From Cryptosporangium arvum DSM 44712 (lineage in GTDB: Bacteria; Actinomycetota; Actinomycetes; Mycobacteriales; Cryptosporangiaceae), in assembly GCF_000585375.1 (NCBI RefSeq), contig NZ_KK073874.1, forward strand, positions 2,108,001 to 2,172,000: a DNA stretch of 64,000 nt, read 5' to 3'. The notes under the pieces were generated by a model. That model searched no databases and had not been told where the DNA came from. It saw nothing but the letters and a program-made list of their open reading frames with translations. The translations under genes were made by a program, and so were the position numbers. Position 1 is the stretch's first letter; every line of letters starts with the position of its first letter. Positions 45,867-58,048 of this stretch are shown one piece after another.

Positions 45867-45938
45867 GGACGCCGTGACGGCCCCGAGGTGCGTCCCGTCC
45901 TGCTGCGGCGTGGGCCTCGGCACGGGAAGGCGGCGCGT

Positions 45939-47114
45939 GTGATCAAGGTTCTAGTGGTCGACGACTCGGTCGTCGTCCGGCGCTTGATCGTGGACGCACT
46001 CAGCGACGATCCCGGCATCGAGGTCGTCGGCACCGCGTCGAACGGGCGACTCGCTCTGGCGAAGATCGAAGAGCTCAAGCCGGACGTCATGACGCTGGAC
46101 ATCGAGATGCCGGTACTCGACGGCATCGGGACGCTCAAGGAGTTGCGCCCGAAGCACAAGCGCCTTCCGGTGATCATGTTCAGCACGCTCACCGCCAACG
46201 GCGCGTCGGCGACGCTGGAAGCGCTCGCCGCCGGCGCCACCGACTACGTCACCAAACCGGCGAACGTCGGCAGCGTCCGGGAGTCGATCAAGAGCGTCCG
46301 CGAGCAGCTGATCCCGCGGATCTACGCGCTCGGCCCGAAACAGCGGCCCGCTCCCGGTCGCCCGGGACTGCCGCCGGGGCGTCCCGGTACGGCGCCGCCC
46401 GGACGCCCGGGTGCCCCGCTGGCCGGACGTCCTCCGCTCGGTGCTCCGGCCGCCCCGTCCGGAGGCATTCGCGCGCCGATGCGGCCGGCGAAAAGCAAGG
46501 TCCCCGGTCAGCGGATCGACGTGATCGCGGTCGGCTGCTCGACCGGCGGACCGGACGCACTGGCCAAGGTCGTCCAGGGCTTCCCGAAGGACCTACCGGT
46601 TCCGGTGGTCGTCGTTCAGCACATGCCGCCAATTTTCACCAAAATGTTCGCAGATCGCCTAGATCGGGCAAGTGCAGTAAAAGTGGTCGAAGCGACGGCG
46701 GACATCCCCTTGGATGCCGGGACGGTATACATCGCGCCCGGCGACAAGCACCTGGAAGTCGTCCGGAAAGGCACTTCCGTGCTCACCAAGCTGCACGAGG
46801 GACCGCCGGAGAACTCCTGCCGACCGGCGGTGGACCCGCTGTTCCGGTCGGTGGCGAGCGTCTTCGGGGCACACGCTCTGACCGTCGTCCTCACCGGCAT
46901 GGGGCAGGACGGCAAGAAGGGCTGCGAGGTTCTGGCGAGGGTCGGTAGCGAAATAGTGGTCCAGGACGAGGAGACATCTGTGGTCTGGGGCATGCCCGGG
47001 GCCGTCGCGCAGGCCGGGCTCGCCGATGTGGTGCTACCGCTCGGCTCGATTTCCGACACTCTGCTCGCTCGCGTCGGCCACGGCCGAGCCAACCGGTTGG
47101 CGGTGGTCCGATGA
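45939..47114 (+). CDS. cheB: chemotaxis receptor methylesterase CheB
   Basis: A 391-residue response-regulator enzyme. The N-terminal receiver has VLVVDDSVVVRRLI, phospho-acceptor aspartate in DVMTLDIEMPVLDG and lysine in YVTKPAN. A Pro/Gly/Arg-rich linker (about 140-190) precedes the methylesterase domain, whose triad is in VGCSTGGPDAL (Ser), VVQHMPPIFT (His) and LTGMGQDGKKG (Asp). It removes receptor methyl groups and resets adaptation. GTG 45939 follows GGGAAGG. It overlaps cheR by four bases. Confidence 0.96.
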   Translation: MIKVLVVDDSVVVRRLIVDALSDDPGIEVVGTASNGRLALAKIEELKPDVMTLDIEMPVLDGIGTLKELRPKHKRLPVIMFSTLTANGASATLEALAAGATDYVTKPANVGSVRESIKSVREQLIPRIYALGPKQRPAPGRPGLPPGRPGTAPPGRPGAPLAGRPPLGAPAAPSGGIRAPMRPAKSKVPGQRIDVIAVGCSTGGPDALAKVVQGFPKDLPVPVVVVQHMPPIFTKMFADRLDRASAVKVVEATADIPLDAGTVYIAPGDKHLEVVRKGTSVLTKLHEGPPENSCRPAVDPLFRSVASVFGAHALTVVLTGMGQDGKKGCEVLARVGSEIVVQDEETSVVWGMPGAVAQAGLADVVLPLGSISDTLLARVGHGRANRLAVVR

Positions 47115-47962
47115 GCCTCTCGGCGCACGAGTTCCAGTTCGTCAGCAGCCTGGTCCGCCGGGAGGCGTCGATCGTGCTGGAACCGGGCAAGGAGTACCTG
47201 GTCGAGGCCCGGCTGCTGCCGCTGGCCCGCAAAGCGGGACTGGCCTCGGTCACCGAGTTCCTGCTCCGGGCGCAGAGCCCGTCCGGGCGCCAGGACCGCG
47301 ACAGCATCGTCGACGCGCTGACGACGAACGAGACGTCCTGGTTCCGCGACCGCGAGCCGTTCACCGCGATGACCGAACTCGTCATCCCGAACGTCGTGAA
47401 GTCCCGCGGACCGTCGCGCCACCTGCGGGTCTGGTCGGCGGCGTCCTCCAGTGGCCAGGAGCCGTACACGCTGGCGATCCTGCTGAAGGAGAACCTGCCA
47501 CCCGGCTGGACCTACGAGATCCTCGGCACCGACATCTCCACCGAGATGCTGGCCCGGGCCGAACGCGGCCGTTACAGCCAGCTGGAAGTCAACCGCGGCC
47601 TGCCCGCCCCGCTCCTGGTGAAGCACTTCACCCGGGCCGGCGCGGAGTGGGAGGTCGCGGCGCCGATCAAGAAGGCGGTCTCGTTCAAGCGGCTCAACCT
47701 GGCGGCACCGTTCCCCCCGATGCCGGCCTTCGACGTGGTGTTCCTGCGCAACGTCCTCATCTACTTCGACGTGGAGACCAAGCGGGGCGTGCTCAAGCGC
47801 ATCCGGAATCTCCTGAAGCCGGATGGGTGGCTCTTCCTCGGCGCCGCCGAGACCACGATGGGAATCGACGACGGCTTCGAACGCGTCGTCACCGGACGGA
47901 CGTCGGCCTACCGGCCGCGGACCGGTATCTCGGCGCCGGTCGGCGTCACGGGGAAGGGGTGA
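47111..47962 (+). CDS. cheR: chemotaxis receptor methyltransferase CheR
   Basis: A 283-residue SAM-dependent enzyme that methylates receptor glutamates. The helical N-terminal domain has TTNETSWFRDREPF. SAM binding shows WSAASSSGQEPYTLAI and ILGTDISTEMLARAERGRYS. The catalytic region has DVVFLRNVLIYFD and GWLFLGAAET. It is translationally coupled to cheB (ATGA). No receptor gene lies in this window. Confidence 0.97.
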   Translation: MSLSAHEFQFVSSLVRREASIVLEPGKEYLVEARLLPLARKAGLASVTEFLLRAQSPSGRQDRDSIVDALTTNETSWFRDREPFTAMTELVIPNVVKSRGPSRHLRVWSAASSSGQEPYTLAILLKENLPPGWTYEILGTDISTEMLARAERGRYSQLEVNRGLPAPLLVKHFTRAGAEWEVAAPIKKAVSFKRLNLAAPFPPMPAFDVVFLRNVLIYFDVETKRGVLKRIRNLLKPDGWLFLGAAETTMGIDDGFERVVTGRTSAYRPRTGISAPVGVTGKG

Positions 47963-47967
47963 GGCGA

Positions 47968-48354
47968 GTGCTCTGCATGGTCATCGACGACTCGCGAGCG
48001 ATGCGACTGATCCTTCGACGCATCGTCACCGGACTGAACTTCGACGTGGTCGAAGCCGGCAATGGGCGGGAGGCGATGGACCGTCTCGAGGAACTCGAGG
48101 CTGTTCCCGAGCTGGCCCTCATCGACTGGAACATGCCGGAGATGAACGGTCTGGAGTTCGTGACCGCCGTTCGCGCGGACAAGAAATACCGGGGGATGAC
48201 CCTGATGATGGTGACGACCGAGAGCGAGCACGGCCAGATCGTCCGTGCTCTGGCCGCCGGGGCTCACGAGTACGTGATCAAGCCGTTCACACCCGACGCG
48301 ATCGTCGACAAGCTGGTCATGCTCGGCCTGATCCCGGACGGAGCGCACGCGTGA
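47968..48354 (+). CDS. cheY: chemotaxis response regulator CheY
   Basis: A 128-residue single receiver: VIDDSRAMRLILRR, phospho-acceptor aspartate in LALIDWNMPEMNGLEF, threonine in MMVTTESE and lysine in YVIKPFTPD. It matches CheY, which when phosphorylated by CheA binds the flagellar switch. The start could be GTG 47959 (overlapping cheR by four bases), GTG 47968 or ATG 47977. The GGAAGGGG upstream best fits 47968. It overlaps the CheX-like gene by four bases. Confidence 0.93.
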   Translation: MLCMVIDDSRAMRLILRRIVTGLNFDVVEAGNGREAMDRLEELEAVPELALIDWNMPEMNGLEFVTAVRADKKYRGMTLMMVTTESEHGQIVRALAAGAHEYVIKPFTPDAIVDKLVMLGLIPDGAHA

Positions 48355-48827
48355 GCGCGACGATGGCCCCGACCGGCGACGACCTGCAGCAGATCGCCGA
48401 GCAGGTGTGGGCCTCCTACCTCGACACCGACGGTGAGAAGCCGCTCATACCGCTACCGCCGGACAAGCTCTCCAAGGACGTCGTGGCCGGGGTCGCGGTC
48501 AGCGGGGCCTGGCACGGTCTGGTCCTGGTGGCGTGCTCGGACGTGGCGTCCAAGGAGGCGGCCGCGGCGCTGCTCGGAATGGAGTCCGACGACGTAACCG
48601 AAGGCGACGTCGACGACGCGTTGGGCGAGCTCGCGAACGTGATCGGTGGCAACGTCAAGAGCTTGCTGCCCGAGCCGTGCACGCTCGGCCTTCCCGAGGT
48701 GCACAACAACGCCGATGGCGACCCGTGGCTTGTCGGCGATGAAATATGCCGGTTTGAGGCGACCTGGTTGGGTGAGCCTATGGAGGTCAGCGTGCTGGAG
48801 AAGCCGCAAGGGGGAGGGACCGAATGA
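48351..48827 (+). CDS. cheX: CheX-like CheY-P phosphatase
   Basis: A 158-residue protein of the CheC/CheX/FliY fold. The diagnostic E-x-x-N active site appears in DALGELANVIGGNVKSLLP, where the glutamate and asparagine of the family insert into the CheY active site and aid dephosphorylation. GAWHGLVLVACSDVASKEAAAALL is the preceding fold element. GTG 48351 overlaps cheY by GTGA, and its own stop overlaps the second cheY by ATGA. It lies directly between two receivers, so one of these is its likely substrate. Confidence 0.82.
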   Translation: MSATMAPTGDDLQQIAEQVWASYLDTDGEKPLIPLPPDKLSKDVVAGVAVSGAWHGLVLVACSDVASKEAAAALLGMESDDVTEGDVDDALGELANVIGGNVKSLLPEPCTLGLPEVHNNADGDPWLVGDEICRFEATWLGEPMEVSVLEKPQGGGTE

Positions 48828-49186
48828 AAATCCTGATTGCCGACGACAGCCGGGTGATGCGTCAGATCGTCACCCGGACGCTGAGGCAGGCCGGGTACGA
48901 CGGCCACGACCTGGTCGAGGCCGAGGACGGCGCCGAGCTCGTCGCGAAGGCGAACGCCGACAGCTTCGACCTGGTGCTGTCCGACTGGAACATGCCCAAT
49001 CTGACCGGCATCGAGGCGCTCCGGGCGCTCCGGGCCGGCGGCAACAACACGCCGTTCGGCTTCGTGACGTCCGAAGGAACCCAGGAGATGCGCGACACGG
49101 CTGCCGCCGGTGGCGCGCTGTTCCTGATCGCGAAGCCGTTCACGGCAGAAATGTTCAAGGAACAGCTGGACTCGATCCTGGGGTGA
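48824..49186 (+). CDS. second CheY-like response regulator
   Basis: A 120-residue receiver: ILIADDSRVMRQIVTRTL, phospho-acceptor aspartate in LVLSDWNMPNLTGIEAL, FGFVTSEGTQEM in place of the usual switch threonine region, and AKPFTAEMF. It is more divergent than the CheY at 47968, lacking the T-A/T-S-D pattern. It may be a phosphate sink or a second output. Coupled by ATGA to the CheX-like gene and five bases before the next gene. Confidence 0.92.
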   Translation: MKILIADDSRVMRQIVTRTLRQAGYDGHDLVEAEDGAELVAKANADSFDLVLSDWNMPNLTGIEALRALRAGGNNTPFGFVTSEGTQEMRDTAAAGGALFLIAKPFTAEMFKEQLDSILG

Positions 49187-49724: not shown

Positions 49725-50555
49725 TCACCCCTGACGCCGGTCCGGCCACGCCACGTCGTCGATGGCGAGGAACGGCCTGGTCGCCACGGCGGCCGGGGTC
49801 GCCCCGGCGAACGCCAGCACCTCGCGGTGCAGGTGCGACTGGTCGGCGTACCCGCTCTCGGCCGCGACCCGCGCGGCACCGCGCCCGGCCGCGAGGCGGT
49901 GCGCGGCGTCGTCGAACCGGATCAGCCGGGCCGCCTGCTTGGGCGTCAGCCCGATCTGCGACCGGAAGCGGGACCACAGGCGCTTACGGCTCCAGCCGAC
50001 GTCGGCGGCCAGCCGTTCGACCCGGACGTGCCCGCGCCCCCGCCGGAGCCGCGCCCAGCAGTACGCGACCTCCGGGTCGGCCGCGCGCCCCTCCTCCAGG
50101 CGCCCGGCCAGCGCCGTCCGCGCGATCGTGAACCGGTCCTCCCAGCTCGCCGCGGCACGCAGCCGGCCATGCAGCCGCCGGGCGTCGCGTCCCCACAGGT
50201 CGTCGAGGCCGACGACCTGACCGGCGAGGTCCCCGCCCAGCGCCGCGTGCGCCACCACCGGCGACAACCGCACCTGGAGACAGGCGAAGCCGCCGGCCGG
50301 ACCGCGGCCGCGCGCGCCCCGGGGCACCAGCCCGGCGACCACGCACCCGTCCCGCCGCGAGCCGGTGGCGTCGGCCACGACGAGCGACTCCTCGCCCAGA
50401 TCGAGGATCAGCGTGACGGCGGAGTGCGGAACCATGTCGATGTCGACCGGCACGTCGGAGTGGTCGCTGAACGCCGCCATCGCGACGCCGGTCGGCCCGG
50501 GCCGACCGGGAAGCGTGATGTCCCAGCCCGGCGCACCGGCTCGCGCGGATCGCAC
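49725..50555 (-). CDS. AraC-family transcriptional regulator
   Basis: A 276-residue protein. The C-terminal AraC-type double helix-turn-helix is visible at about 190-265: VERLAADVGWSRKRLWSRFRS (first), then IGLTPKQAARLIRFDDAAHRLA and RVAAESGYADQSHLHREVLAFAG (second, with the family's SGYADQSHL). The N-terminal half is an effector-type domain without clear signature. It starts at GTG 50555, four bases after the hydrolase gene, so both are likely transcribed together and the regulator may control that hydrolase. Convergent with the end of the chemotaxis operon. Confidence 0.9.
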   Translation of the reverse strand: MRSARAGAPGWDITLPGRPGPTGVAMAAFSDHSDVPVDIDMVPHSAVTLILDLGEESLVVADATGSRRDGCVVAGLVPRGARGRGPAGGFACLQVRLSPVVAHAALGGDLAGQVVGLDDLWGRDARRLHGRLRAAASWEDRFTIARTALAGRLEEGRAADPEVAYCWARLRRGRGHVRVERLAADVGWSRKRLWSRFRSQIGLTPKQAARLIRFDDAAHRLAAGRGAARVAAESGYADQSHLHREVLAFAGATPAAVATRPFLAIDDVAWPDRRQG

Positions 50556-50559
50556 GGCC

Positions 50560-51342
50560 TCAGCGTACGAGCGTGGCGGCGAAATCCAACAGGAGTGCCG
50601 CGGTCGGCTCGGGTGCTTCCAGCGGCGGGGTGTGCCCCACGCCCGGGAGCAGCTCGATCCGGGCGCCGGGCACGACCCGGTACGCCTCCGCCGACGAGGC
50701 CCGCCACCGCTCGTCGTCGGCACCGAAGATCACCAGTAGCGGGAGCCCCGAGCCGCGGAGCCGGTCCGGCAGGCTGCGCTCCTCGAGATAGTCCCGGTAG
50801 GCGCCCATCACGCCGAGGAAGTCCCGGTGGGTCATCCGGTGCAGGTGCTCGAACCACGACTCGGGGATCCGCACGTTCTCGGCGGTGCCGCGCGCGGCCT
50901 TCGCCATACTCTTCGGGCTACGCAGACGCCAGAGCACCGCGCCGGGAAAGCGGGTCCGGACCAGCCGGAAGAGCAGGCTCTCCGGGAGCTGGGCGGTGAG
51001 GTCTGGACCCATGTCGAGCAGGGCGACGGCCGCCGTGAGGTCGGGGCGCGCCTCGGCGAGCGCGGTGGCCAGCATGCTGCCGGACGAGTGCCCGACCGCG
51101 GTCACGCGTGTCCTCCCGAGGCGGTCGAGGACGGCGGCGATGCGGCGGACCTGGGTCGCGACGTCGTAGCGCGGCGGGGTGCCGTGGCCGAGCAGGTCGA
51201 CGCGGACCACGTGGTGGCTCTCCGCGAGCGCCGGAACCACGGGGTTCCAGATCGCGCTCGGGGCGACGGCGTTGGTGAGCAGCAGCAGGGTGGAGGTGTC
51301 CGGGTCGCCGTCCACCAGCACGTGCACGTCAGAGTCGGGCAT
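50560..51342 (-). CDS. alpha/beta hydrolase
   Basis: A 260-residue hydrolase: LLLLTNAVAPSAIWNPVVPALA (oxyanion strand), VRVDLLGHGTP, nucleophile elbow AVGHSSGSMLATALAEARPDL, LLVIFGADDERW (acid) and PGVGHTPPLEAPEP (histidine). Soluble, with substrate unknown. ATG 51342 is the likely start, with GGGAGACG upstream. It lies just downstream of the flagellar operon end (51438) and four bases before the AraC regulator, and is probably independent of motility. Confidence 0.9.
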   Translation of the reverse strand: MPDSDVHVLVDGDPDTSTLLLLTNAVAPSAIWNPVVPALAESHHVVRVDLLGHGTPPRYDVATQVRRIAAVLDRLGRTRVTAVGHSSGSMLATALAEARPDLTAAVALLDMGPDLTAQLPESLLFRLVRTRFPGAVLWRLRSPKSMAKAARGTAENVRIPESWFEHLHRMTHRDFLGVMGAYRDYLEERSLPDRLRGSGLPLLVIFGADDERWRASSAEAYRVVPGARIELLPGVGHTPPLEAPEPTAALLLDFAATLVR

Positions 51343-51437
51343 CACGATCGTCTCCCGCGGTCGAGTCGGACCGTGAGCGTCTCCCAGGTGCCGGCACCAG
51401 GTCTTGAACGAATGTTCCCGCCGCTGCGGGCGGTGGG

Positions 51438-51731
51438 TCAGGCGGTGGGCCCGTTGCCCTCGGCCTCGGCCGCCTCGGCGGCGGCGCGGCGCTCGGCCTC
51501 GGCCTGACGCATCTCCTCGAGCTGCCGCTCCAGCTCGTGTTCCTCGTGGATGCGCTGGTAGGTGTTGTAGAGCATCCGCAGGAACCCCAGCATGACCGCC
51601 GCCACCAGCACCGCGATCAGGTAGCGGATGAGCGCGGTGTCCATGTCCAGGTCCCCGACGACGAACGCCTGCCACAGCGCGGGGCCGGCCAGCAGCGCGG
51701 CCAGCAGCAGCACGGAGTAGCGGGCGAACAT
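51438..51731 (-). CDS. small membrane protein with C-terminal coiled coil, end of flagellar operon
   Basis: A 97-residue protein with two membrane helices (about 5-22, YSVLLLAALLAGPALWQAF, and about 33-53, RYLIAVLVAAVMLGFLRML). A charged coiled coil follows (about 58-85, EEHELERQLEEMRQAEAERR). ATG 51731 shares one base with the stop of the flhF-like gene, so translation is coupled. I do not recognise the family. Its coupling suggests a role with the FlhF-like protein or FlhA at the membrane, which is inference. Confidence 0.8.
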   Translation of the reverse strand: MFARYSVLLLAALLAGPALWQAFVVGDLDMDTALIRYLIAVLVAAVMLGFLRMLYNTYQRIHEEHELERQLEEMRQAEAERRAAAEAAEAEGNGPTA

Positions 51732-54622
51732 CAGAAGCCGCCCGGCTCGTCCTCGGGCCACCAGACCGGGCTCGGGTGACCGTTTGCCGCCGGCCCGGGC
51801 GTGCCGTGCCCGTTACCGCCACGGCCGTTCCCGCTTCGGCCGTTCCCGCCCCGGCCGTTCCCGCCCCGGCCGTTCCCGCCCCGGCCGTTGAGTCCGGGGC
51901 CGTTGAGTCCGGCGCCGGGCGCCGGCGGGTAGTCGACCGGTGCGGGTGGGCGGTACCCGGCGTCCGGAGCGCGGTGCGTCGTCCGCCGTGACCCCACCGG
52001 CTCCTCCGTGACGGCCGCGTGGGCGCCGCGGTGCCCGGCCGGGAGCTCCAGCGGCATGATCGGGGCGATCGGGCCGTCACCCGGCAACGGACCGCCGGTC
52101 AGGCGCTCGCAGAGCAGCGTGGTCCAGCGGCGCGCGGTGGCCGGCCGGCCGTCGAGCATGACGACCGGCAGACCGAAGTGCAGCACGCTGCCGGGCTCGA
52201 CGGTCTCGTCGGCGCCGTGCACGGCGAGCGCGTCGACCCGGTCGAGCGCGTCCAGGAACCGCGCCGTGTCGGCGTTCTTGCGCGTGGCGTCGACGCAGGC
52301 CCAGACCTGGGTCGGGGCGAGCGCGGCGATCGTCGCGCGCGGCGAACCGTCGGCGCCCGGCGTCACCGCGGCCGGGCGGCCGATCGGCGAGCCCGCGGTG
52401 GCCTCGACGACCACGATCCGGGGACCGGCCGACGAGTGCAGCTCGGCCGCCCTCCGGACCGCCTCCTCCGGGCCGGAGATCCGATGGGAGCGGCGCAGAC
52501 CGGTACCGGCGATCGAGCCCGCGACGAGCGTCGCCGACGGGTCGATGCCGGCCGAGAGCGCGGCGATCTGTCCCGCGACCACGAGCGCCGGTTCGGCGTC
52601 ACCGACGATCACCAGCACCTCGCCGGGGCGAGAGGGCAGCGCCGGGGGATAGGGCAGCCCGGCGACCGCCCTGGCCACCGCGGTCCACGGGTCGGGCCCG
52701 ACGGCGCGGGCCGCGATGTGCACCGGCACGCCGTTGCGGACGAGCTGGACCGCCGGATGGTCGTAGCCGTTGCGGGCGGTGGGTTTGGGGGGAAGCCGGC
52801 GCATCGGCTGCACCGCGGTGGGCGGCCCGTCGATCTCCGGCGGGAGGCCGGGCGCGACCGGTGTGCCCGGCGTGTGCGGTCCGGTGGGCGCGTGCGGTCC
52901 GGTAGGGGCGTGCGGTCCGGTGGGGGCGTGCGGTCCGGTGGATGCGTGCGGTCCGGTGGGGCCGGGGTGGGCCGGGACGCTGGCTCGGCCGGTCGCGGGC
53001 CGCTGATCGTCGGCGGCGAGGACCGGGTGCCCAGGGGTCGCGACGTCGGTCCGCTGGACCGCGGACGTGCCCCACTCCGCCGCCGCGGGAGCCGACCGGC
53101 GCGGTGCGGGGGAGACCGGGTGAGCACCGCGCACGGTGCGGCGCCGCGGTTGCGGCCGGGCGATCAGAACCTCCGCGGTGACCGCGCCGTCCTCGTCCTC
53201 GTCGATCCGGTCGGAGCTCGGGGAACCCGGCCCCGCCCTCCCGTCACGGCGTCCCGGACTCCGCTCCACCGAACCCCGCCGCCCGGTGCCGGACCGGTGC
53301 TCCGGCTCTCCGCGGTGCCCGGGCTCTTCGTGGTGTTCCGGCTCCTCGGCCTCCGAACGGCCGCGGCGCCGTGCTCCGACCAGGCGTCCCGACGGTTCGT
53401 CGTGCTCCGAGGTGTCGTGGCGCTGGGTGCTGTCGTGGTGCTGGGTGTTGTCGTGGTGCTGGGTGTTGTCGTGGTGCTGGGCATCCGTGAAGCGGTCCGC
53501 ACCTCGGGAGCGGTCGGCTTCGTCGTGGGGTTCCGCGTCCTCGTCGGGTTCGGTGCCGTCGCGGCGGGTGCCGGGTGCGGGGGAGGTGGCGCGGGGGCGT
53601 GCGATGTCGGCCGGCGATTCGGTGGCCACCGACGCGTCGTCGTCCGATCCGGCGTCCTCGCCGGGCATCGAATCCGCGGCGCCGGGTCCGGACACGATCC
53701 GGATGCGTCCGTTGCGGCGGCTCGCGGTGCGCTGCTCGTTCTCGGCGGCCTCGGCGGCGAGTTCCGCGGCCCGGCGTCGTGCCCGTTCCGCGAGCTTCGC
53801 GGCTACCGAAGGACCGTTCAACACCGGCCCCCCGCTCGAACCGGGCTTCCCAGCCGTCCCGTGCCCGGCCGTCCCGTGCCCAGCCGCCCCGTGCCCAGCC
53901 GCCCCGTGCCCAGCCGCCCCGCGCCCAGCCGCCCCGCGCCCAGCAGCCTCCGGCCCGGCCTCGGGCCCGGTGATCCCGGTTCCCGCACCTCCGCGTCCGG
54001 CAGCTGCGGGCCCGGTGGTTCCGGTTCCCGCACCTCCGCGTCCGGCAGCTGCGGGCCCGTTGATCCCGGTCCCCGCACTTCCGCGCCCGGCCACTCCGGC
54101 CCCGCGCTCACCGACGCCCTGCCCCGTGGCCGTGGAACCCTGAGCCCCGGCACCCCCTCGGGCGGAATCGTCCGTCGCCCCGGGCAACGGGCCGGCCGCC
54201 GCCGTGTCGGCCAGACCGTCGAACACCCCGAACCGCGTCGCACCAGCCCCGACACCACCCGCGGGCTCGATCGTGCGGCGCGCAGCGTCCCCGCTCCGTT
54301 CCGCCAGCACCTCGGCGAACCGCGCGGCGTTGCCCGGTCGCGCCACCGGACGTTCGACGGAGTCCTGTGCCTCCGCCCGCGCGAGCAGCGCGGTCAACCC
54401 GTCCGCGGTCGGCGCGTCGAGGTCCTCGCTCTCGTCCGGCGACTCCTCCGGATCGAGGATGTCAACCGCGATCTCGAACCGCTGCTTCGCGAAGAAGCCG
54501 GCCAGCCCTCCGCTCCGCACCCGCTCGGCGGACACGATCCGCGCCGCCGAACCGTGTTCCTCCTTGATCTTCGCGAGCAGCGATTCCAGATCCGGACCCT
54601 CAAGCAACAGCCGGGTAGACAC
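51731..54622 (-). CDS. FlhF-like protein with degenerate GTPase domain and repeat-rich linker
   Basis: A 963-residue protein at the flhF position after flhA. Residues 1-55 resemble the FlhF N-terminus (LLEGPDLESLLAKIKEEHG, then GGLAGFFAKQRFEIAVDI). Residues about 60-640 are a low-complexity linker with five tandem-repeat blocks. Residues about 660-850 resemble the SRP-type GTPase of FlhF in order: VLVIVGDAEPALVVAGQIAAL where a P-loop should be, IVVVEATAGSP where DTAGR is expected, and DALAVHGADETVEPGSVLHFGLPVVMLDG, like the TKLDE(T)...G...GLP...G end. The GKT/GKS lysine-threonine is absent. The tail repeats GNGRG. GTG 54622 overlaps flhA by 23 bases. FlhF normally sets flagellar number and pole. 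This one is unlikely to bind GTP. Confidence 0.75.
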   Translation of the reverse strand: MSTRLLLEGPDLESLLAKIKEEHGSAARIVSAERVRSGGLAGFFAKQRFEIAVDILDPEESPDESEDLDAPTADGLTALLARAEAQDSVERPVARPGNAARFAEVLAERSGDAARRTIEPAGGVGAGATRFGVFDGLADTAAAGPLPGATDDSARGGAGAQGSTATGQGVGERGAGVAGRGSAGTGINGPAAAGRGGAGTGTTGPAAAGRGGAGTGITGPEAGPEAAGRGAAGRGAAGHGAAGHGAAGHGTAGHGTAGKPGSSGGPVLNGPSVAAKLAERARRRAAELAAEAAENEQRTASRRNGRIRIVSGPGAADSMPGEDAGSDDDASVATESPADIARPRATSPAPGTRRDGTEPDEDAEPHDEADRSRGADRFTDAQHHDNTQHHDNTQHHDSTQRHDTSEHDEPSGRLVGARRRGRSEAEEPEHHEEPGHRGEPEHRSGTGRRGSVERSPGRRDGRAGPGSPSSDRIDEDEDGAVTAEVLIARPQPRRRTVRGAHPVSPAPRRSAPAAAEWGTSAVQRTDVATPGHPVLAADDQRPATGRASVPAHPGPTGPHASTGPHAPTGPHAPTGPHAPTGPHTPGTPVAPGLPPEIDGPPTAVQPMRRLPPKPTARNGYDHPAVQLVRNGVPVHIAARAVGPDPWTAVARAVAGLPYPPALPSRPGEVLVIVGDAEPALVVAGQIAALSAGIDPSATLVAGSIAGTGLRRSHRISGPEEAVRRAAELHSSAGPRIVVVEATAGSPIGRPAAVTPGADGSPRATIAALAPTQVWACVDATRKNADTARFLDALDRVDALAVHGADETVEPGSVLHFGLPVVMLDGRPATARRWTTLLCERLTGGPLPGDGPIAPIMPLELPAGHRGAHAAVTEEPVGSRRTTHRAPDAGYRPPAPVDYPPAPGAGLNGPGLNGRGGNGRGGNGRGGNGRSGNGRGGNGHGTPGPAANGHPSPVWWPEDEPGGF
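51821..51890. repeat. 15-bp tandem repeat, about 4.7 copies, inside the flhF-like gene
   Basis: Units of CCGGCCGTTCCCGCC with slight changes encode repeats of Gly-Asn-Gly-Arg-Gly in the C-terminal tail of the protein. Confidence 0.9.
52875..52964. repeat. 18-bp tandem repeat, 5 copies, inside the flhF-like gene
   Basis: Five units close to TGCGGTCCGGTGGGGGCG encode the six-residue repeat Thr-Gly-Pro-His-Ala-Pro before the GTPase-like domain. Confidence 0.9.
53414..53485. repeat. 18-bp tandem repeat, 4 copies, inside the flhF-like gene
   Basis: Four units close to GTCGTGGTGCTGGGTGTT encode Gln-His-His-Asp-Asn-Thr repeats, a histidine/aspartate-rich stretch that might bind metal. Confidence 0.9.
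53851..53940. repeat. 15-bp tandem repeat, 6 copies, inside the flhF-like gene
   Basis: Six units close to CAGCCGCCCCGTGCC encode Gly-(His/Arg)-Gly-Ala-Ala repeats. Confidence 0.9.
53981..54090. repeat. 45-bp tandem repeat, about 2.4 copies, inside the flhF-like gene
   Basis: Two units of 45 bases (53981-54025, 54026-54070) and a partial third encode a 15-residue Gly/Ala/Thr-rich repeat containing GPAAAGRGGAGTG. Confidence 0.9.
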
Positions 54623-56681
54623 CGCCCACCACCCCCACGGTCTCGATCTGGGCGGAGACGCCCGAGATCTCGGTGTACGACAGCACCGGGAGGCGCGGCG
54701 TCGCGAGCCGGACCAGCCGCTGCAGCGGCAATCTCAGGACCGGCGAGCAGACCAGCACCGCGGTGGTGCCCCGCTGCTCCGCCGTGTCGAACAGCCGGTG
54801 CGCCTCGGTGACGAGCGCCTCGGCCCGCGCGGTGTCCACGCCGAGCTGGATCCCGCCCTCGCCGGGGCGCAGCGATTCCAGCAGCGCCTGTTCGATCTGC
54901 GGGTCGAGCGTCATCACCGGCAGGCGCCCCTCGACGACGTAGTGGTTGGCGATCGCCGGGCCGAGCGAGCTGCGCGCGGCTTCGAGCAGCCCGTCGGGAG
55001 TGCTCCCCGCCTTCGCGGCCAGCGACAGCCCTTCGAAGATCCGGACCAGGTCGCGGATCGGCACCCCTTCGTCGAGGAGGTGCTGGAGCACCCGCTGGAT
55101 CTCACCCAGGCTGAGCAGTGCCGGCGTCAGCTCCTCGATCACGACCGGGTGCGACCGCTTAACGACCTCGGTGAGGTTGCGGACGTCTTCCCGGCCGAGC
55201 AGCCGCGACGCGTTCTGGCGCACCACCTCGGCCAGGTGCGTGATCACCACCGAGGCCCGGTCGACGACGGTCGCGCCCATGATCTCGGCCTGGTGTCGCA
55301 GCTCGGCCGGGATCCACTTGCCCTCGAGCCCGAACACCGGCTCGTGCCCGGCGCGTCCCGGCAGCGCCTCCAGACCGTCGCCGATCGCCAGCGCGGTGCC
55401 GGGCGGCGCCTGGCCCCGCGCCACTTCGACGCCGCTGATCCGGATGCCGTAGCTGGAGAGCGGCAGGTCCAGGTCGTCGTGGGTGCGCACCGGCGGCATG
55501 ATGATGCCGAGTTCGAGCGCGACCTTGCGACGCAGCGCACGCACCCGGTCGAGCAGGTCGCCGCCGGAGGTGTCGACGAGGTCCACCAGGTCCGGCGCGA
55601 GCGCGAGCTCGAGCGGGTCGACCCGCATCTCCCCGAGGAGCGCCTCGGGCGAGTCCGGCGACGGGCCGGTCGGCGTCGCCGTCGCGGCCTGTTCCGCGGC
55701 CTCGTCCTCTTTCCGCTGATCCGCGGAGGGCAGCCGCGACGCCAGGAAGAGCGTCCCCGCGCCCAGCAGCAGGAACGGCAACTTGGGCAGGCCGGGGATC
55801 AGGCAGAGCGCGAGCGCGGCGGCCCCGGCGATCTGCACCGCCCGCTTCTGGGCTCCGAGCTGCCCGACCACCGACGTCCCCATGTCGCCGGAGGTCGCCG
55901 AGCGGGTCACGATCAGACCGGTGGACACCGACAGCAGCAGTGCCGGGATCTGGGAGACCAGGCCGTCGCCGATGCTCAGGAGGCTGTAGGTGTTGACCGC
56001 CTCCATCGGGGCCATGCCCTTCTGGAGGATCCCGACGGTCATGCCACCGATCAGGTTGATCGCCGTGATGACGATCGCCGCGATCGCGTCGCCTTTGACG
56101 AACTTCGAGGCACCGTCCATCGAGCCGTAGAAGTCGGCTTCCGCGGCGACGTCCTCGCGGCGGCGGCGCGCCTCGCCTTCGTCGATCAGACCGGCGTTGA
56201 GGTCGGCGTCGATCGCCATCTGCTTACCGGGCATCGCGTCGAGCGTGAACCGGGCGCCGACCTCCGCGACCCGCTCGGCACCCTTGGTGATGACCAGGAA
56301 CTGGATGACGACCAGGATCAGGAACATGACCAGGCCGATGATCAGCGAGCCACCGACGACGAAGTGACCGAAGGCCTCGATGACGTGCCCGGCGAATCCG
56401 TCGAGCAGCACCAGGCGGGTGGCGCTGATGTTCAGCGCGAGCCGGAACAGCGTCGCGACGAGCAGCAGCGCGGGGAAGATCGAGAAGTCCAGCGGGCGCG
56501 TCACGTACAAGCTGACCAGTACGATGACCAGCGACAACGTGATGTTCAAAGCCAGCAGGATGTCCAGCAGAAAGGTCGGCAGCGGCACGACCATCATCAC
56601 GATGATGGATACGATGCCGACCGGTACGGCGAACGGCCCGATCGCCTTGAAGTTCACGGCGCTCCGCAGGTACGACGACAT
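54600..56681 (-). CDS. flhA: flagellar type III export protein FlhA
   Basis: A 693-residue protein of the FHIPEP family, the export gate's ion-conducting and cargo-docking part. About eight membrane helices occupy residues 15-320 (VGIVSIIVMMVVPLPTFLLDILLALNITLS, SIFPALLLVATLFRLALNISATRLVL). The conserved FHIPEP cytoplasmic loop has MPGKQMAIDADLNAGLID and DFYGSMDGASKFVKGDAIA. The C-terminal cytoplasmic domain (about 360-693) binds export chaperones. ATG 56681 starts MSSYLRSAVNFK. It has its own FliA-type promoter (56724-56751), separate from the motB-flhB operon. Confidence 0.97.
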   Translation of the reverse strand: MSSYLRSAVNFKAIGPFAVPVGIVSIIVMMVVPLPTFLLDILLALNITLSLVIVLVSLYVTRPLDFSIFPALLLVATLFRLALNISATRLVLLDGFAGHVIEAFGHFVVGGSLIIGLVMFLILVVIQFLVITKGAERVAEVGARFTLDAMPGKQMAIDADLNAGLIDEGEARRRREDVAAEADFYGSMDGASKFVKGDAIAAIVITAINLIGGMTVGILQKGMAPMEAVNTYSLLSIGDGLVSQIPALLLSVSTGLIVTRSATSGDMGTSVVGQLGAQKRAVQIAGAAALALCLIPGLPKLPFLLLGAGTLFLASRLPSADQRKEDEAAEQAATATPTGPSPDSPEALLGEMRVDPLELALAPDLVDLVDTSGGDLLDRVRALRRKVALELGIIMPPVRTHDDLDLPLSSYGIRISGVEVARGQAPPGTALAIGDGLEALPGRAGHEPVFGLEGKWIPAELRHQAEIMGATVVDRASVVITHLAEVVRQNASRLLGREDVRNLTEVVKRSHPVVIEELTPALLSLGEIQRVLQHLLDEGVPIRDLVRIFEGLSLAAKAGSTPDGLLEAARSSLGPAIANHYVVEGRLPVMTLDPQIEQALLESLRPGEGGIQLGVDTARAEALVTEAHRLFDTAEQRGTTAVLVCSPVLRLPLQRLVRLATPRLPVLSYTEISGVSAQIETVGVVGGVYPAVA

Positions 56682-56723
56682 GCCCGATCCGTCGGGCTCC
56701 CCGCTGCCGTCCTGGCTTGTGCC

Positions 56724-56751
56724 CCATCGGCACCCGGGCGCCGGGCCTGAG
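56724..56751 (-). promoter_or_regulatory. FliA-type promoter candidate of flhA
   Basis: On the minus strand CTCA (56751-56748), 16 bases, then GCCGATGG (56731-56724), which matches GCCGATAA at six of eight positions. It is the cleanest of the set. It lies 43 bases before the flhA ATG and divergent from the EAL-HDOD gene's element. Confidence 0.7.
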
Positions 56752-56763
56752 GGATTCTTTTGC

Positions 56764-56790
56764 TTCACCCGGGGCATCCCCCGCCGATGT
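56764..56790 (+). promoter_or_regulatory. FliA-type promoter candidate of the EAL-HDOD gene
   Basis: TTCA (56764-56767), 15 bases, then GCCGATGT (56783-56790), six of eight positions matching GCCGATAA. Initiation about seven bases later would fall on the GTG at 56798, giving a leaderless message. The match is one base poorer in the -35 than those of flhA and cheB. Confidence 0.5.
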
Positions 56791-56797
56791 CATCGAC

Positions 56798-58048
56798 GTG
56801 CACCCAGTCCCCGCGCCGCCGCAGCCCGTCGCGGACAGCACTGAGACGCTCTACGTGGCCCGCCAGCCGATCGTCAACCGCGACGGCCAGCTGATCGCCT
56901 ACGAGCTCCTGTTCCGCGACGCTCCCGGCGCGACCGCCTCCACCGAGCGCGCCGCGGCGGCCACCAGCCGGGTGCTCGTCAACGCGTTCGCCGAGTTCGG
57001 GCTGGAACGCCTGGTCGGGGACCGGCTCGGGTTCGTCAACCTCACCGCCGAGTTCCTCGCCGGTGATCTGCCGCTGCCGTTCGCGCCGGACCTGGCCGTG
57101 CTCGAGGTCCTGGAGACCGTCGAGGTCGACGACCGGGTGGTGGCCGGCGTCGCCGACCTGGCCCGGCAGGGGTACGCGATCGCGCTCGACGACTTCGTCT
57201 GGGGCACCAGCATCGATCGGCTGCTCGACTACGCCACGTACATCAAGTTCGAGGTCGCCGGCGTCGACCCGACGCTGCTCGGCGAACGTGTCGCGATCGC
57301 ACGCCGGCGCAAGCGGAGCATCAAGTTGCTGGCCGAGCGCCTGGAGACCGACGCGGACTACCAGCTGGCGCGGGACCTCGGCTTCGAGCTGTTCCAGGGG
57401 TACCTGCTCGGCCGGCCGGAGACGTTGACCGCGGAGGCGATCAGCCCGTCGAAAGCGCGCCAGCTCGAGCTGCTGGGCCTGCTGACCAGCCCGGACGTCG
57501 ACTTGCCGAAGTTGTCGTCGGTGATCGCGGCCGACCCGGGGCTGGCACTGCGCATCCTGCGCGCCACGAACTCGGCCTCGGTCGGGCAGCGGCGGCGGAT
57601 CGCGTCGATCCAGGACGCGGTGGTCATTCTCGGGCTCGAACGGCTGCGTCAGTGGCTCGCGGTGATGATCGTCAGCGACCTGTCGGGGGCCGGTGAGGCC
57701 GACCTGTCGATCCCGATGGTGCGCGGCCGGTGGATCCAGAACATCGCGACGCAGGCCCACCTGCCCGCCGACGTCGGCTTCACGATCGGTCTGCTGTCCG
57801 GCGTGGCCGAGTTGCTGGGCGTCGACGCCAGGGACCTCGCCGACCGGCTCCCGCTCACCGACGAGGTGCAGGCCGCGCTGGTCGAGGAGCAGGGTGAGTT
57901 CGGCGTCGTGCTGAACGCGATCCGTGCCTACGAGTCCGGCGCGCGCGGGATGGCGCGGGTGCAGAACAAGCTCTCGCTGGCCGTCCTCGCGAAGAGCTAC
58001 CTCGAGGCCGCCGCCTGGCAGGTCTCCACGTCGGCGGCGATCGGCTAG
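56798..58048 (+). CDS. EAL-HDOD domain signalling protein
   Basis: A 416-residue protein of the EAL plus HDOD type (Bacillus YuxH family). The N-terminal EAL-like part (about 15-215) has YVARQPIVNRDGQLIAYELLFRD and QGYAIALDDFVWG, but the EAL glutamate motif reads LEVLE, and the full catalytic set for cyclic-di-GMP cleavage is not evident. The HDOD domain (about 215-400) has LPKLSSVIAADPGLALRILRATNSAS. Family members often regulate motility without phosphodiesterase activity. It runs opposite to the flagellar genes, between flhB and flhA. GTG 56798 may be leaderless. Confidence 0.9.
   Translation: MHPVPAPPQPVADSTETLYVARQPIVNRDGQLIAYELLFRDAPGATASTERAAAATSRVLVNAFAEFGLERLVGDRLGFVNLTAEFLAGDLPLPFAPDLAVLEVLETVEVDDRVVAGVADLARQGYAIALDDFVWGTSIDRLLDYATYIKFEVAGVDPTLLGERVAIARRRKRSIKLLAERLETDADYQLARDLGFELFQGYLLGRPETLTAEAISPSKARQLELLGLLTSPDVDLPKLSSVIAADPGLALRILRATNSASVGQRRRIASIQDAVVILGLERLRQWLAVMIVSDLSGAGEADLSIPMVRGRWIQNIATQAHLPADVGFTIGLLSGVAELLGVDARDLADRLPLTDEVQAALVEEQGEFGVVLNAIRAYESGARGMARVQNKLSLAVLAKSYLEAAAWQVSTSAAIG

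Follow-up and report, generated by a model that had tools for sequence, protein, structure and literature searches.

A conserved FlhF-derived pseudo-GTPase encoded beside flhA in Cryptosporangium arvum and other actinobacteria

The closest described counterpart of the gene considered here is FlhF of Shewanella putrefaciens, in which an N-terminal FliG-interaction domain (FID; Protein Data Bank (PDB) entry 9EN1) is followed by a linker and a C-terminal NG domain (8R9R). In Shewanella, FliG is bound by the FID and, while held by FlhF, is unable to bind FliM/FliN; the NG domain attaches to the landmark HubP with no need of nucleotide (PMC11236974). Stimulation of GTP hydrolysis by FlhG is said to lift this FliG block (PMC12826062). 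GTP binding is seen as a core property of FlhF. In the window, a 64,000-nucleotide stretch of Cryptosporangium arvum DSM 44712 (NZ_KK073874.1, positions 2,108,001 to 2,172,000), the flhF position directly after flhA holds a 963-residue open reading frame (ORF) with a GTG start. Models give its product the same order of FID, linker and NG domain, but the P-loop, DTAGR and TKLD are missing and the genome has no FlhG. By descent and layout the protein is FlhF; its lack of the defining motif puts it outside the FlhF GTPase family. Descent from FlhF with loss of the GTP motifs is almost certain, and the protein presumably binds no GTP.

This pseudo-GTPase FlhF is a genuine and conserved protein for which the open literature searched has no description. 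The open-access search returned no description of a P-loop-less FlhF and no FlhF paper with pseudo-GTPase wording; for FlhF together with Actinoplanes it returned only a 2023 survey (PMC10746217). That survey, based on BLASTP and PSI-BLAST searches followed up with SMART and HHpred, states that the non-FlgFG (later) actinobacterial classes lack FlhF. The present data disagree: what appears to be an FlhF descendant stands at the expected place in those classes, with class membership of the families taken from FlgG only. The survey may have missed it because its C-terminal domain matches no FlhF or signal recognition particle (SRP) model in Pfam or NCBIfam. The finding revises the published claim of absence. 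A natural family with both binding ends and no GTP site uncouples tethering from switching, so that the purpose of the switch can be addressed. The gene is also a candidate for flagellar placement in zoospore-forming genera such as Actinoplanes.

An FlhF-type N-terminus and a predicted NG fold without its GTP site

The N-terminus carries the most direct sequence signal. In a whole-protein scan, the NCBIfam hidden Markov model (HMM) for FlhF, TIGR03499, matches residues 8-77 (E 1.5e-6), and residues 1-57 alone match at E 9.8e-8; the score of 28.4 bits does not reach the curated FlhF cut-off of 174.15. The FID of 9EN1 is the best PDB match to the N-terminal domain model, so that HMM and model together identify an FlhF-type B/FID domain. 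An hmmsearch of the FID profile against PDB sequences found 9EN1 only at E 0.19, below DNA polymerases, and a Pfam scan found no family in the 963-residue protein.

The AlphaFold model of the C-terminal domain has the NG fold of SRP GTPases (mean predicted local distance difference test score, pLDDT, 87.6 over residues 610-849). Among the fold-comparison matches listed, all are SRP GTPases, and Ffh and FtsY fit the model no less well than FlhF (8R9R NG) does. Profile alignment with FlhF puts GDAEPALV and EATAGS in register with the P-loop and DTAGR. Predicted model and profile comparison thus both point to an SRP-type NG domain, in which the P-loop, G3 DTAGR and G4 TKxD of FlhF are all absent. 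Simpler searches of the C-terminal sequence gave no such family. Against PDB sequences, phmmer of the whole protein found no SRP match and hmmsearch of the C-terminal profile reached FtsY only at E 0.96, below unrelated matches. Pfam and NCBIfam scans of the domain in 46 relatives found no FlhF or SRP family and scattered unrelated ones (modD in 6 of 46, E 0.0026; TsiV in 3, E 0.00062; the strongest, at E 0.00018, a DNA ligase match confined to a single member). The link to FlhF therefore rests on the N-terminal HMM match, the profile-profile comparison, the fold comparison and gene order. These results bear out the core of the first-pass annotation, made from the sequence alone, which had read the gene as FlhF-like in position and N-terminus and SRP-GTPase-like in a C-terminus with GDAEPALV in place of the P-loop and EATAGS in place of DTAGR.

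The loss is uniform among relatives. The P-loop lysine column holds L, V, M, A, Y or W in alignment A3 (K in 0 of 46 rows) and L, F, V or Q in A1 (K in 0 of 18), an alignment that includes the window protein and was not selected by family patterns. GxxxxGK(T/S) is absent from all 65 relatives from named genera and from all 21 flhF-position proteins of the order. The 65 named loci were fetched with the patterns [VI]W[AT]xVDAT and K[NT]xDxA, drawn from the pseudo-GTPase family, so this set shows family coherence and not P-loop frequency. The patterns also contain part of VDATRK, whose conservation in A3 is therefore partly by construction, and VDATRK was rejected as the most conserved stretch on this ground. 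Invariant in A1 (18/18) are D176, which is the last D of VDATRKNAD, P201, P210, W224 and G65, the glycine that opens the P-loop place; A170 and K173 within VDATRKNAD are kept in 17 rows each. The conserved A1 residues may mark a binding surface.

The same residues, together with the retained NG fold, could instead serve a site at which the domain takes up a nucleotide or some other small ligand in a novel manner, preserving a ligand-controlled switch. Such a switch is unlikely: K is missing from the lysine column in every A3 and A1 row, and the P-loop columns are less conserved in A3 (mean majority per column 0.50) than the whole domain (0.66), though G3 (0.66) and G4 (0.64) are not. The match of the model to Ffh and FtsY as well as FlhF also admits a pseudo-partner role, in which the P-loop-less NG domain teams up with an active SRP GTPase to direct the insertion of FliF. 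SRP GTPases do work as NG pairs, but canonical pairing is GTP-dependent (PMC12826062), and the role seems highly improbable.

Between the two folded ends lies a linker of about 560 residues, 90% of them A, G, P, S, T, E, D, R, Q, K, H or N. Whole proteins measure 293 to 1,659 aa within the order and 287 to 1,085 aa among 61 full-length relatives from named genera, so the long linker is not special and no part of the change. The first-pass annotation, which put the linker at 580 residues, was wrong to count its gain as part of the change. The longest version, of 1,659 aa, belongs to the relative G031 (L051 2649-7628).

Distribution and history of the loss

The gene follows the flagellum. Among 61 genomes of the order (the window genome and 60 relatives), FlhA occurs in 21, and the C-terminal domain is matched in 19 of these and in no FlhA-negative genome. 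An ORF with an FlhF-like N-terminus directly follows flhA in all 21, the gene being divided over two contigs in G001 and G004; in the two genomes without the C-terminal match, G013 and G053 (L065, L066), the protein has a shorter, different C-terminus. In named genera, flhA abuts the gene and GGxxGFF is present in 61 of 61 loci that hold the gene start, the other 4 of 65 being cut by a contig end. The layout, the missing motif and the place after flhA thus recur in 21/21 genomes of the order (two with a different C-terminus) and in at least 14 named genera, which is more than chance. Weak second matches to the C-terminal query lie elsewhere in G004 (E 7.6e-5) and G019 (E 4.4e-4), and profile A1 weakly matches a genome without FlhA, G373 (E 4.1e-4).

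The window genome (9.2 Mb, one contig) has PF00448 at only two places, both full-length and taken, as expected, as Ffh and FtsY, which share the NG fold and would exist there separately from the window protein. The best match to FlhG in this genome (E 4.5e-12, about 48 bits) falls far below the more than 450 bits of true FlhG. None of the refuting observations named in the first-pass annotation was made: the C-terminal model resembles the NG domain, the genome holds no intact FlhF at another place, and the family goes with flagellar genes in other genomes.

A phylum sample extends the picture. FlhA is present in 57 of its 346 genomes, and 77 FlhA-positive genomes were compared (the 21 of the order and 56 others from the sample). 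The P-loop-less form occurs in 41: 37 could be read to the gene end and none has a P-loop (G001 and G004 in two contig pieces), and four were assigned from their family and B domain alone (G164, G206 and G227 at contig ends; G332, where the frame breaks up). A P-loop is seen in 26 genomes, only the B domain before a contig end in two (G345, G391), and no flhF in eight: G142, G369, G137, G106, G286, G296, G348 and G397, of which G369 and G397 were less closely examined and G296, G348 and G397 offered at most 1,100 bases. The actinobacterial P-loop FlhF shares its place after flhA and its B domain with the window protein, and keeps the P-loop.

FlhG is found in 13 of the 77 genomes with scores exceeding 450 bits, whereas no other match gets beyond 70 bits; all 13 combine an FlhF above the curated cut-off with exactly three SRP GTPases per genome. 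FlhF exceeds that cut-off in 14 genomes, the fourteenth being G172, for which no FlhA was shown. Another 13 genomes have flhF with a P-loop and no FlhG. By family, P-loop FlhF is accompanied by FlhG in f25, f27 and f39 and lacks it in f35, f36, f42, f56, f60 and f73. None of the 41 P-loop-less genomes has FlhG or a third SRP GTPase; exactly two SRP GTPases are found in 40 of them and one in a single incomplete genome. In f36 and f42 (L132, L150, L151, L155, L169, L166) the P-loop is kept, DTAGR reads DTPP and the genome has no FlhG, which is possibly a halfway state. Read in this way, the pattern suggests that FlhG was lost first, then G3, then the P-loop.

A more reduced flhF-position protein, with the B domain and a different C-terminal part (about 175 aa in nine aligned), is found in f30, f43, f49, f53, f55 and f61 (L121, L127, L128, L130, L135, L152, L153, L160, L162) and in G013 and G053. 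Profile comparison of this C-terminal part with NG families gave E 0.0059 at probability 6 (A3) and E 0.25 (A5); these relatives are counted as P-loop-less and no NG fold is claimed for them.

A quick maximum-likelihood tree of FlhA from 69 of the 77 genomes is split into 44 and 25 rows by a branch with Shimodaira-Hasegawa-like approximate likelihood ratio test (SH-aLRT) support of 100. The 44-row side holds all 41 P-loop-less genomes and three without flhF at the locus. The other side holds 19 rows labelled P-loop (one, G345, read to the B domain only) and six labelled without flhF, among which G167, G177 and G272 have a P-loop and G391 has the B domain. G243, G369, G137 and G167 form long branches of unsure placement. 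All 19 genomes with FlgG over the cut-off belong to P-loop-side families, some of them not tree rows. Canonical FlhF elsewhere has the P-loop, so the root should lie on the P-loop side. With all P-loop-less rows on one side of a fully supported branch, a single, old, clade-wide loss is the simplest reading of the tree. Tracing the P-loop across actinobacterial flagellar loci had been suggested in the first-pass annotation, which held that zoosporic actinomycetes may need the change; a change special to this organism or to zoosporic genera is not supported.

Selection argues against a decaying, functionless FlhF relic. That idea could draw on the lost GTPase motifs and on the three genomes without flhF at the locus on the same side of the tree. 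Pairwise ratios of non-synonymous to synonymous change (dN/dS) among four congeners (G000-G003; simple Nei-Gojobori counting) were taken over six pairs for three parts of the protein: the B domain gives 0.06-0.13, the C-terminal domain 0.09-0.18 and the tail 0.41-0.76. The linker gives 0.60-0.70 over three pairs, with an alignment less sure because of repeats, and is only 35-43% identical at the same congener distance. Since both folded ends stay below 0.2 against 0.6-0.7 for the linker, the gene is not decaying; with ORFs uninterrupted in at least 14 named genera, the relic has next to no chance of being right.

The relatives include Actinoplanes and its allies, Planomonospora, Planobispora, Motilibacter, Quadrisphaera, Geodermatophilus and Actinosynnema. 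Section 5 of PMC10746217 names Streptosporangiales as without flagella. Both flhA and the pseudo-GTPase gene are carried by Planomonospora and Planobispora (L175-L177, L179-L182, L186). We take the order of these two genera to be Streptosporangiales. A record titled Streptomyces sp. NP160 (L237) also carries the gene, with 63% identity over 319 residues to Quadrisphaera (L236); its organism name may be wrong.

A possible nucleotide-free tether

With both ends kept and the switch gone, the protein would be a constant tether. We favour, with some confidence, a conserved FlhF descendant without a GTP site that works as a GTP-free, static tether. The B/FID domain would hold FliG, so that FliF rings start at the protein's site; the linker would give reach; and the pseudo-NG domain would dock on a site marker through a type of contact that is nucleotide-independent in Shewanella FlhF. 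Canonical release of FliG is thought to follow FlhG-stimulated GTP hydrolysis, and hence its release to FliM/FliN would have to take another route, such as competition, turnover or weak binding. The neighbouring two-segment membrane protein might act as anchor or marker. Flagellated actinobacteria with a pseudo-GTPase FlhF may thus manage the assembly or placement of flagella with no GTP switch of the usual kind.

One point weighs against a static tether: Pseudomonas aeruginosa FlhF binds FliG when GTP-bound (PMC12713375). The protein could instead regulate flagellar number, export or assembly timing and not placement, as its overlap with flhA and the reported link of Bacillus cereus FlhF to flagellation and hemolysin secretion (PMC7218170) might suggest. 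The pair of FID and NG domain fits tethering best, and a purely regulatory role is doubtful. On the wider scale, we tentatively entertain that in much of Actinomycetota a nucleotide-free placement system, made of a FliG-tethering pseudo-GTPase FlhF and the two-segment membrane protein, took over from the FlhF-FlhG GTPase/ATPase circuit after stepwise loss of FlhG, G3 and P-loop.

The coupled membrane protein and the surrounding cluster

The stop codon of the flhF-position gene overlaps the ATG of the small membrane protein gene (TGATG). The product has 97 residues from this ATG, or 107 from an upstream GTG, and combines a charged tail with two hydrophobic segments. With a home-made profile that used 17 of these proteins as seed, it was detected on the same strand in 21 of 23 order regions; the remaining two regions are contig ends, and their other halves carry it. 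The profile also places it downstream in 57 of the 65 named loci and picks it up in 33 of the 58 phylum regions, several of which are truncated. This synteny makes it plausible that the pseudo-GTPase and the small protein could form a scaffold, as the first-pass annotation proposed, and the small protein is perhaps the best candidate for anchor or site marker. Many flagellated actinobacteria have a small two-segment protein by flhF, whether or not FlhF has a P-loop, and G142 (L117), where no flhF was seen, retains it. FipA of gammaproteobacteria is likewise a small membrane protein encoded near flhF, but has one transmembrane segment and DUF2802 (PMC11620751). Pfam found no family at cut-off in the window copy and no DUF2802 at E<=10, and identity with FipA was rejected by architecture.

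Features of the flhF-position locus (positions in the window)
Feature	Position	Strand	Basis
FlhF-derived pseudo-GTPase gene, 963 aa, directly after flhA	51731..54622	-	ORF, HMM, profile and fold comparison
FlhF B domain with FID fold, residues 1-57, motif RxGGxxGFFA	54452..54622	-	
Low-complexity linker with tandem repeats, presumably disordered, residues 58-620	52763..54451	-	
P-loop-less NG (pseudo-GTPase) domain, residues 621-841	52100..52762	-	
GDAEPALV at the place of P-loop GxxxxGK(T/S), from residue 674	52580..52603	-	
EATAGS at the place of DTAGR (G3), from residue 740	52388..52405	-	
VDATRKNAD, conserved stretch	52268..52294	-	
HGADET at the place of TKLDET (G4), lysine lost	52202..52219	-	
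C-terminal low-complexity tail, residues 842-963	51734..52099	-	
Coupled small membrane protein, 97 aa	51438..51731	-	two hydrophobic segments and charged tail
flhA, upstream neighbour	54600..56777	-	FHIPEP E 1.3e-251; TIGR01398

The flhF-position gene overlaps flhA by 23 bases, and an Rfam scan of 50500-57800 found no match. Further upstream on the same strand lie flhB, fliR, fliQ, fliO, fliN, fliM and fliL; the gene therefore sits in a flagellar export and switch cluster. Just past this cluster, on the opposite strand, chemotaxis genes (CheB, CheR, a CheX-domain protein and a receiver protein) occupy 45888-49186 (+).

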